Shown here piece by piece: positions 5,246-63,471 of a stretch of 64,000 nt of DNA. The first letter of the stretch is position 1. Every line of letters starts with the position of its first letter. A program made the translations under genes and the position numbers. The notes beneath the pieces were generated by a model, which was not told where the DNA came from, did no database searches, and saw nothing but the letters and a program-made list of their open reading frames with translations. The DNA is taken from assembly GCF_009707705.1 (NCBI RefSeq), contig NZ_WLYX01000001.1, positions 1,798,001 to 1,862,000 on the forward strand. Direction: 5' to 3'. This DNA comes from Paludibacterium denitrificans. Its GTDB lineage: Bacteria > Pseudomonadota > Gammaproteobacteria > Burkholderiales > Chromobacteriaceae.

Positions 5246-5639
5246 ATGAGTGAACAGGATAAACAGAACGGTATTGCCATGCGTACCCGCGTGATGAGCG
5301 AAGCGTTTGTTACGCGCGCCATGAGCAATCAGGACGCCTTCTCGCGGCCGCTGCAAGACTGGCTGAACGAACATGCCGGGGCAGTACCGGCAGCGCGGTG
5401 GTATCGAGCTGAAAACCCGCAGCCTCGTCACCTGCGCCATGCTGGCGGCCATGGGCCGCAGCAACGAGCTGCGCGGCCATATCCGCGGAGCGGTCAACAA
5501 TGGCGCCAGCCTGATCGAAATCCGCGAAGTGCTGTTGCAGGTGGCGGTGTATGCCGGTGCTCCTGCCGCGGTGGAAGCCTTCCGCAACGCGCGCGAAGTG
5601 CTGGCGGAAATGGGCCTGTCGCTGCCGGACGAAGAATAA
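5246..5639 (+). CDS. Carboxymuconolactone decarboxylase-family protein
   Basis: This small cytosolic protein of about 132 residues has the AhpD/CMD fold. The reconstructed centre reads NEHAWGSTWQRGGIELKTRS, followed by SLVTCAMLAAMGRSNELRGH and a long helix ending in AAVEAFRNAREVL, as in 4-carboxymuconolactone decarboxylase (PcaC-like) proteins. No protocatechuate genes are adjacent, so the substrate is open. The catalytic CxxC of AhpD is absent. Both tryptophan codons after CC have lost a T (at 5376 and 5387, CCTGG read as CCGG). These two single-base losses break and nearly repair the frame. The gene begins 21 bases after hisC with AAGGAG upstream, so it may be cotranscribed. Confidence 0.85.
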
Positions 5640-5655
5640 TCGTCCACCGCCGGAC

Positions 5656-5686
5656 AAGGTTGGCCGAATCCTCTTCGGCCAACCTT
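5656..5686. terminator. Inverted pair of the uptake-like motif
   Basis: AAGGTTGGCCGAA and TTCGGCCAACCTT are exact inverted copies (13 bases each) around a five-base loop, 17 bases after the CMD gene stop. There is no T run. In Neisseria, inverted uptake sequences often double as transcription terminators, and the same is inferred here. Confidence 0.75.
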
Positions 5687-5762
5687 GCTGGCATCAGGGT
5701 TGTAATCTGCCTAAGCCATGCCTCACACTTAGGGGATCTTCACCCCCGATAAGGACTGACTC

Positions 5763-6262
5763 ATGGCAACTGTTACCTTGCGCGGCAACCCGGTTCAGGT
5801 CGCTGGCACTTTGCCCGCCACCGGCACGCCAGCCCCCGCTCTCACCCTGACGGCAGCGGACCTGTCCGATGTAACGCTGGCCGCGTTTGCTTAAGCAAGA
5901 AAAAAATCCTCAATATTTTCCCGAGCATCGATACCCCCACCTGCGCCACCTCGGTGCGCAAGTTCAACGAAAAGGCCGCCAGTCAGGCCGACACCGTGGT
6001 GTTGTGTATTTCCGCCGACTTGCCGTTTGCGCAAAAGCGCTTCTGCGGCGCCGAAGGCATTGCCAATGTGCAGATGCTGTCCACCTTCCGCCATCCGGAA
6101 TTTCTGCCGGACTGGGGCGTACAGTTGGCCGAAGGCCCGATGCTGGGCCTGACCGCGCGCGCGGTGGTGGTGCTGGATGCCGATAACACCGTCAAGCACA
6201 GCGAACTGGTGGCCGAGATTGGCCGAGAACCCAATTACGACGCGGCACTGGCGGCGCTGTAA
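5763..6262 (+). CDS. tpx: Thiol peroxidase (Tpx, atypical 2-Cys peroxiredoxin)
   Basis: This thioredoxin-dependent peroxidase reduces hydrogen and alkyl peroxides and is usually periplasmic or cytosolic without a cleaved signal. The reconstructed protein of about 166 residues begins [21 protein letters not shown]. It contains [17 protein letters not shown] with the peroxidatic cysteine and QKRFCGAEG with the resolving cysteine. It ends in a normal Tpx tail. One break occurs at 5889-5896, where GCTTAAGC replaces the GCCGGC needed for AFAGKKKILN. A T-rich terminator follows, facing the chemoreceptor genes. Confidence 0.95.
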
Positions 6263-15410: not shown

Positions 15411-15475
15411 GGTTGGCCGAAACCGTTGCCCGGTTACCCGTTTGCAGATCATCGCCAGCCAGCTTTCGGCCAACC
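15411..15475. repeat. Widely spaced inverted pair of uptake-like motifs
   Basis: GGTTGGCCGAAACC at 15411-15424 and TTTCGGCCAACC at 15464-15475 lie in opposite orientation directly after xthA. The 39-base gap makes a simple terminator less certain than for the tight pairs. Confidence 0.6.
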
Positions 15476-38520: not shown

Positions 38521-38551
38521 AGGTTGGCCGAACAGCGGTTTCGGCCAACCT
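38521..38551. terminator. Tight inverted pair of the uptake-like motif
   Basis: AGGTTGGCCGAA at 38521-38532 and TTCGGCCAACCT at 38540-38551 are exact inverted copies, seven bases apart. They lie 18 bases after the aldehyde dehydrogenase stop and before the DUF485-like gene. Terminator function is inferred as in Neisseria. Confidence 0.72.
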
Positions 38552-38568: not shown

Positions 38569-39921
38569 TTATTTCTGCCAATAGGTTTTGACGTTGACGA
38601 ATTCGTACAGGCCAAACTCGGACAGCTCGCGGCCGTAGCCGGAAGCCTTGACGCCGCCAAACGGCAGACGCAGATCAGAGCTGGTGTGGCGGTTGATGAA
38701 CACGCTGCTTAAGCTTCGATGTCGCGCGCCAGTGCCCAGCCGCGTTCCACATCGGCTGTGTAGATGGCCGCGCCCAGACCAAACGGCGTGTCGTTGGCCA
38801 GCCGGATGGCGTCGGCTTCGTCGCGTGCGCGCAGAATGCTGGCAACCGGGCCAAACACTTCCTCGTGGTAAACGCGGCAGTCGGCATTGACGTGATCGAG
38901 CACTGTTGCCGGATAAAAGAAGCCCGGCGACGACGGCATTTGCCCGCCCGGCGCAGCGTGGCGCCATGGTGGGTGGCATCCAGCACCTGTGCATGCAGGG
39001 CTTCGCGCAAGTCGGCACGGGTGAGCGGCGCCAGCGTGGTGGCCGGATGGCGCGGGTCGCCGGGGCAGAGCACGCGCTTCGGCCAGAAAGGCGTCGACGA
39101 ACGCGTCTGCCACGTCCGGTACCACAATCATGCGTTTGGCGGCGTTACAGCTTTGGCATCGCGGAAGCGCGAATGGGCGGCCTCCTGCGCGGCGGTGCCG
39201 ACATCGGCATCGGCCAGCACGATGAACGGGTTGCTGCCGCCCAGTTCCAGCACGGTTTTCTTCAGATGCTTGGTTACGAGGCTGGCAATGACGCGGCCGG
39301 TTTGCGTGGAGCCGGTAAAGGCCACCGCGTCGCTCAGGCGGATGGCGTCCTCGACCTGATCATGCTCGATCCAGACCACGTCCAGCACCGGCAGTCTGGC
39401 CGCCTGCACGATGTCCAGCAAACACTGGGTACTTTGCGGGACCGATGGCGCCGGTTTGACCAGACAGGCATTGCCCGCCATCAGCGCCGGGATGGCAAAA
39501 CGCAGCACCTGCCAGATCGGGTAATTCCACGGCATCACCGCCAGCACGGTGCCTAGCGGTTCGAACGCCACGCCGCTGCGGCTGGCCTGTGTGGCGATCG
39601 GCTGTGCGGCCAGCAGGCCCGGCGCCAGTTCGGCGTAGTAGCGGATTAACTGCACCGATTTATCGATTTCCGCCAGACACTCGCTGGTGCGCTTGCCCAC
39701 TTCCAGCGTGACCAGATCGGCCAGCTCCTCGCGGGCGGCCGACAAGCATTCGGCCAGATGCAGCAAATGTGTGGCGCGCTCGGCAACCGGCAGGCGGCCC
39801 CGGTGCGCGTTGCGCCGTCTGCAGCCGGGCAACGGTGTGGCCCAGCGTGGCGGCTTACCAGAGCCGGGCGTGTGAAAACCACCTCTCCGGTGGCAGGGTT
39901 ACAGCTGGTAAAGGCAGTCAT
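38569..39921 (-). CDS. NAD(P)-dependent aldehyde dehydrogenase (succinate-semialdehyde type)
   Basis: This ALDH-superfamily enzyme has about 450 residues. [50 protein letters not shown] and [15 protein letters not shown] are present. The catalytic cysteine is in [11 protein letters not shown], found only after a frame change near 39150. [11 protein letters not shown] and [14 protein letters not shown] follow. The length and motifs match the GabD/Sad-like short ALDHs. Breaks at 39853 (GCTTACC), about 39800 (CCTGG read as CCGG), 39150, 39075 and 38707-38714 (GCTTAAGC before [11 protein letters not shown]) are artefact-like. Confidence 0.88.
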
Positions 39922-63389: not shown

Positions 63390-63420
63390 AAAACGCCGCG
63401 ATGTTTCGCGGCGTTTTTTA
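63390..63420 (+). terminator. Terminator after cytochrome c5
   Basis: AAAACGCCGCG and CGCGGCGTTTT form a stem with a T run. Confidence 0.92.
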
Positions 63421-63426
63421 TTGTTT

Positions 63427-63461
63427 GGCCAACCTTGATGCTTGATGCGTCAGGTTGGCCG
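63427..63461. repeat. Inverted pair of uptake-like sequence between convergent genes
   Basis: GGCCAACCT and AGGTTGGCC(GAA) face each other across about 16 bases, between the cytochrome c5 terminator and the Ivy gene end. Only the second copy has the full GAA end. Confidence 0.55.
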
Positions 63462-63471
63462 AAAGGTTGGT

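Follow-up and report, generated by a model that had tools for sequence, protein, structure and literature searches.

The inverted pairs that stand at the ends of genes in Paludibacterium denitrificans are quite probably made up of copies of a repeat like the DNA uptake sequence (DUS) of Neisseria, a DUS-like repeat that exists in several dialects among related Chromobacteriaceae; the repeat would serve in DNA uptake, and its pairs just 3' of genes may sometimes have been co-opted as transcription terminators. The window considered here, a stretch of 64,000 nucleotides of this genome, contains four such pairs. All four had been pointed out in an earlier note, and all are present at the places named there, either exactly or to within a few bases.

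The repeat has the core GTTGGCCGAA, which extends to the 12-mer AGGTTGGCCGAA and usually occurs in the context AAGGTTGGCCGAA(A/C). Across the whole genome (3.35 Mb in 3 contigs) there are 968 exact copies of GGTTGGCCGAA, 473 on one strand and 495 on the other, compared with 5 copies of the reversed control. An 860-kb sample that includes the window (G000:C3:1400001-2260000, G000 being the window genome) has 565 cores where a third-order Markov model predicts about 4.7, an excess of roughly 120-fold, and variants of the core with one mismatch are rare in the same sample. The window itself holds 60 exact cores. Hundreds to thousands of near-exact copies balanced over both strands, as found here, are characteristic of DUS-type repeats. 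Most cores are unpaired, and 422 of the 565 lie inside genes, where single copies occur at about the frequency expected from length. The pairs are real. Two tight head-to-head pairs (spacer of 0-10 nt) occur in the window versus 0.14 expected, and the 860-kb sample has 13 versus the 1.0 expected from the number of cores, together with 2 tail-to-tail pairs at the same spacing. For spacers of 0-30 nt, head-to-head pairs number 48 and tail-to-tail pairs 27 over the genome as a whole.

The two tight pairs of the window follow a carboxymuconolactone decarboxylase (CMD) family gene and an aldehyde dehydrogenase gene. In pair 1, which was located from the sequence and the genome scan and then folded, the left arm (5655-5668, plus strand) consists of CAAG followed by the core at 5659-5668, and the right arm (5674-5687, minus strand) consists of the core as TTCGGCCAAC at 5674-5683 followed by CTTG, so that 5655-5668 and 5674-5687 form a perfect 14-bp stem with a loop of 5 nt. 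This stem begins 15 nt past the stop codon (5637-5639) of the CMD gene, the 3' part of which was called at 5373-5639 on the plus strand and has orthologues in 13 relatives; according to the gene calls, the upstream portion of the gene is frameshifted in the assembly. Pair 2, identified in the same way, has arms at 38521-38532 (plus strand, core at 38523-38532) and 38540-38551 (minus strand, core at 38540-38549), which form a 12-bp stem with a loop of 7 nt. It is separated by 17 nt from the stop codon (38569-38571) of the minus-strand aldehyde dehydrogenase gene (38569-39852; gene calls and orthologues), which is also broken by frameshifts in the assembly. Exact arms of 12-13 bases with loops of 5-7 bases had been proposed for these two pairs. 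Predicted RNA folds have energies of -35.2 kcal/mol (z = -6.6) for pair 1 and -23.4 kcal/mol (z = -3.8) for pair 2.

The two looser pairs also exist. Both cores of pair 3 (15412-15421 on the plus strand, 3 nt past the stop of the putative xthA gene, and 15465-15474 on the minus strand, as read from the sequence) are exact and are separated by a spacer of 43 nt, and the predicted fold is weak (z = -1.9). Pair 4 lies between convergent genes and combines an imperfect core at 63424-63433 on the minus strand, the variant TTTGGCCAAC with one mismatch, with an exact core at 63454-63463 on the plus strand. This arrangement is tail-to-tail, the opposite of that in pairs 1 and 2, and its predicted fold has an energy of -27.8 kcal/mol (z = -5.6). 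Pair 4 is situated downstream of a canonical intrinsic terminator 3' of the cytochrome c5 gene (63390-63417, plus strand), which has a 12-bp stem, a 4-nt loop and a T tract. The earlier reader supplied the gene names (CMD, aldehyde dehydrogenase, xthA, cytochrome c5, Ivy), which rest here on reading frames, with orthologues checked for the first three. Between pair 1 and the next gene (start at 5763), positions 5690-5760 (GGGTTGAA...CCACACT...) show conservation over much of the family and perhaps constitute a promoter or regulatory site of that downstream, thiol peroxidase-like gene.

The location of the pairs relative to genes was examined with the analysis's own gene calls. About 931 frame changes were detected by a frame-tolerant HMM in the 860-kb sample, where many genes are split. 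Since the assembly is so rich in frameshifts that ORF-based calls broke, gene ends in the window genome were taken from this HMM, and better assemblies served for a second round of the location test. For the same reason, annotating the window by ORFs would mislead; the completeness of the genome is given as 80.6%. In the 860-kb sample, 16 of the 17 head-to-head pairs with spacers of 0-20 nt are intergenic, versus an expectation of 0.54 if the cores are placed anew within coding and intergenic sequence, and none lies in a divergent intergenic region. For the repeated test, 93 loci were collected by scanning named genomes for exact 11-base arms, the loci thus being picked for carrying pairs and not for where the pairs lie. 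They come from Gulbenkiania mobilis, Pseudogulbenkiania subflava, P. ferrooxidans, a Pseudogulbenkiania MAG, strain JH1-16, Crenobacter oryzisoli and an Aquitalea MAG. Of the 92 pairs that were classified, 52 separate tandem genes and 38 convergent ones; divergent genes have none between them, and 2 pairs fall in coding DNA, even though coding DNA makes up 88% of the sequence sampled from these relatives. Ninety of the 92 thus lie downstream of a gene, and the tandem pairs begin at a median of 21 nt past the stop codon. The outcome that the earlier note had named as refuting its reading, a lack of enrichment downstream of genes, was looked for and not observed. The proposal that the pairs are placed at gene ends is thereby borne out, as is the argument that codon use does not explain them, since they are intergenic.

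The individual sites are not conserved. In 12 relatives, the CMD gene is never followed by a pair. The xthA gene is followed by a tail-to-tail pair of the host's own GCA dialect in two genomes of genus g5 (G004 and G013) and by a single copy in G001, and after the aldehyde dehydrogenase gene a genome of genus g4 (G003) has a tail-to-tail pair in its own GAG dialect. Sites of this kind have thus been filled independently, each in the dialect of its host. Conservation of the window pairs was considered as a sign of function and rejected, the pairs being lineage-specific. A mobile hairpin element was likewise rejected: 81 distinct loops occur among 97 pairs, the median identity of the flanks is 0.3, and only between orthologues are loops and flanks related.

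The repeat belongs to a set of at least three strict, lineage-specific dialects, GAA, GAG and GCA, all of which have the core CCG and not CTG. The 12-mer of the window genome is abundant in 8 of 61 genomes of the family. When the dialects are pooled in the pattern GTTGGCCGMR, which counts GCG as well, 23 of the 61 genomes carry between 294 and 3107 copies, with 8-120 head-to-head pairs; in the remaining 38, copies number no more than 245 and pairs 0-1. The stretches read from end to end amounted to 860 kb in the window genome, 340 kb in G. mobilis and 240 kb in each of G004 and G012. In 40-kb samples, AGGTTGGCCGAG stood out in G012 (genus g4) and AGGTTGGCCGCA in G004 (genus g5), and no comparable repeat was found in 40-kb samples of genera g7, g8, g9 and g10 or of three other families. 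The 240-kb sample of G004 has 162 GCA versus 0 GAA cores, and that of G012 has 138 GAG versus 3 GAA cores. NCBI places Gulbenkiania and Pseudogulbenkiania in the Chromobacteriaceae, order Neisseriales.

Several features of individual genomes deserve mention. Tail-to-tail pairs are as common as head-to-head pairs, or commoner, in the samples of G012 and G004. Seven of 12 head-to-head pairs in G004 have a spacer of exactly 14 nt, and for seven of the 12 the nearest called gene end is 466-1726 nt away, a pattern that hints at a repeated element or array. G012, otherwise a GAG genome, has eight GAA-type 12-mers on one strand within 7 kb, some of them 42 nt apart (G012:C1:1158709-1165804), which looks like a repeated gene or an imported stretch. 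Finally, the Aquitalea MAG (G006, genus g7) has 1442 copies of the pooled repeat versus at most 145 in nine genomes of the same GTDB genus, which raises the question of gain, loss or a genus boundary.

A candidate receptor for the repeat is a ComP-like pilin. The window genome has three matches to PF16732, a family that was tried as a receptor marker and discarded as too broad, as it matches 39 of 41 genomes irrespective of whether they have the repeat. The best solved-structure matches of one of these three (C3:1519286) and of a Gulbenkiania pilin are to the minor pilin ComP (2m3k, 2nba and 5hz7), and an alignment read by eye gives a stretch common to the ComP-like pilins, LLENAHFmerWYaekG...WPsLP. 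Two ComP/PF16732-like pilin genes stand in tandem at G000:C3:1518681-1519609. Orthologues of the ComP-like pilin occur through much of the family, including genera g7 and g8 without the repeat, so the pilin alone does not predict the repeat. Its presence is compatible with a role of the repeat in uptake and is not proof of one.

The repeat resembles the Neisseria DUS dialects, ATGCCGTCTGAA and its relatives, in its length of about 10-12 nt, in occurring in thousands of exact copies divided equally between the strands and in having dialects that are strict by lineage (PMC3630211). Inverted pairs after genes, membership of the same order, Neisseriales, and a ComP-like pilin are also shared. Aligned in register, AGGTTGGCCGAA and ATGCCGTCTGAA agree at A1, G3, G6, C8, G10, A11 and A12. 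The two differ in that CCG stands here in place of CTG, the family is Chromobacteriaceae and the paired share is far smaller. CTG is conserved in all dialects of the published DUS survey (PMC3630211). Because the repeat lacks a CTG core and its part in uptake is one that we infer, it is filed as DUS-like and not as a proven DUS; the best reading is that it works like a DUS. The uptake signal sequence (USS) of Haemophilus influenzae is unrelated in sequence and belongs to a different order, and its pairs (50 versus 25) show a moderate orientation bias near that of the window genome.

The pairs themselves can be compared with the DUS-pair terminators of Neisseria, a parallel that had been drawn in the earlier note and that holds, though pairing is far less dominant here. 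As in Neisseria, the head-to-head orientation is favored (in the GAA dialect), the pairs occupy convergent and tandem gene ends, and a T tract is found on the side expected from the direction of the gene. N. meningitidis Z2491 has 226 pairs in the head-to-head orientation versus 5 in the other within 10 nt, among 1,892 copies (PMC1852404), whereas the window genome has 48 versus 27 with spacers of 0-30 nt and only about a third of tandem pairs are accompanied by a T tract. The T tail is also weaker here, with 2.25 T in 5 nt for tandem pairs versus about 3.05 in forward tandem regions of N. meningitidis. In some Neisseriaceae, DUS lie within up to 37% of terminators (PMC13020248).

Evidence bearing on termination comes from the 62 tandem pairs, 52 from the relatives and 10 from the window genome. 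With T counted in the 8 nt after the second core and its CC, and with direction set by the upstream gene, 22 of the 62 pairs have at least 5 T downstream, and 2 of the 62 have as many in the mirrored position upstream (Wilcoxon p = 2.8e-4); about two thirds have no T tract. Asymmetry of this kind is predicted for terminators, and a permissive site alone does not predict it. Enrichment 3' of genes together with a T tract on the downstream side is what characterizes DUS-pair terminators as a class; the pairs show both, and by its sequence a subset of them conforms to the model of an intrinsic terminator. The claim that pairs of this kind form terminators thus stands for a subset, but it is not supported for the pairs of the window that had been cited as examples. 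Pairs 1 and 2 each form a stable GC-rich hairpin shortly after a stop codon and lack a T tract directly after the stem, with T at 3 of 8 positions for pair 1 and 0 of 8 for pair 2, and a terminator scan in the direction of the gene found none at either pair. Pair 3, with its 43-nt loop, and pair 4, which is tail-to-tail, has an imperfect arm and lies past a canonical terminator, give it no support either. For purposes of annotation, the pairs mark post-gene hairpins, only about a third of which should be called terminators.

The earlier reader's view that all head-to-head pairs, those of the window included, are dedicated transcription terminators draws on strong hairpins located just past stop codons, on their absence from divergent regions and on the T asymmetry. 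It is nevertheless unlikely, as only the 22 of 62 tandem pairs have 5 or more T in 8 nt and pairs 1 and 2 have no T tract. Moreover, only about 12 nt separate pair 2 from the following start codon, and in G002 and G011 (genus g3) the homologue of the next gene begins 6-7 nt after the aldehyde dehydrogenase gene, so there is no space for a new promoter. The lack of a T tract at most pairs and their position directly past stop codons would be accommodated if these were REP-type 3'-end hairpins that shield mRNA from exonucleases or separate genes and if the repeat were unrelated to DNA uptake. That explanation is highly improbable given that most cores are single and within genes, that the repeat is symmetric on both strands, that strict dialects switch between genera and that loops and flanks are unrelated, unlike those of a hairpin element that has spread.

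It is also conceivable, if very doubtful, that the repeat is some other architecture motif, such as a recombination hotspot, a segregation motif or a methylation signal, with the pairs as by-products of permissive intergenic DNA. The near-expected frequency of single copies in genes and the palindrome GGCC within the core fit such a motif, but equal counts on the two strands argue against a polar one, and neither the switch of dialect between genera around an otherwise constant core nor a pairing bias beyond chance would be expected.

On the reading preferred here, the arms of the pairs are copies of the DUS-like repeat AGGTTGGCCGAA that fills the genome and belongs to the dialects of part of the related Chromobacteriaceae. 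The repeat would spread because a ComP-like minor pilin favors repeat-bearing DNA in transformation, and copies would be tolerated in a short permissive stretch past stop codons. Two copies that end up head-to-head there would form a strong hairpin, and where a T tract is present, in about one third of cases, the hairpin may become an intrinsic terminator that is kept by selection. The pairs of the window fall in the larger group that lacks a T tract; in all likelihood they are uptake repeats at a permissive position that act at most as weak terminators or 3'-end stabilizers. Several observations weigh against this reading: ComP-like pilins are present in genera g7 and g8 as well, the core is CCG where all published dialects have CTG, the T tail is weaker than in N. 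meningitidis and most tandem pairs fall short of 5 T in 8 nt, tail-to-tail pairs are not disfavored in the samples of the GAG and GCA dialects, and the 12 relatives lack a pair after the CMD gene.

Lutiella nitroferrum 2002 is presumably the strain now called P. ferrooxidans 2002. The DUS dialect survey, which dates from 2013, reports no obvious DUS in L. nitroferrum 2002, Pseudogulbenkiania sp. NH8B, Laribacter hongkongensis and two Chromobacterium genomes; over-represented 10-mers are given in the supplement, where Table S1D may include the 10-mer described here (PMC3630211). A literature search found no paper on uptake sequences in Chromobacteriaceae, and a search for the 11-mer returned unrelated papers only. 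It seems likely that part of the Chromobacteriaceae uses unreported uptake sequences with a CCG core in place of CTG, that these come in three or more dialects which a ComP orthologue reads, and that the system is older or more widespread in the Neisseriales than the literature indicates. The part concerned comprises the genus of the window, Pseudogulbenkiania, Gulbenkiania, the group of JH1-16 and Crenobacter oryzisoli, one Aquitalea MAG and two further genera. If this is true, the 23 of 61 genomes with the repeat would make the Chromobacteriaceae a second family of the order in which DNA uptake is sequence-specific. Related genera that share the ComP-like pilin and differ in whether they carry the repeat would provide a natural experiment, and dialects that are one or two bases apart would make the rules of recognition by ComP directly testable.
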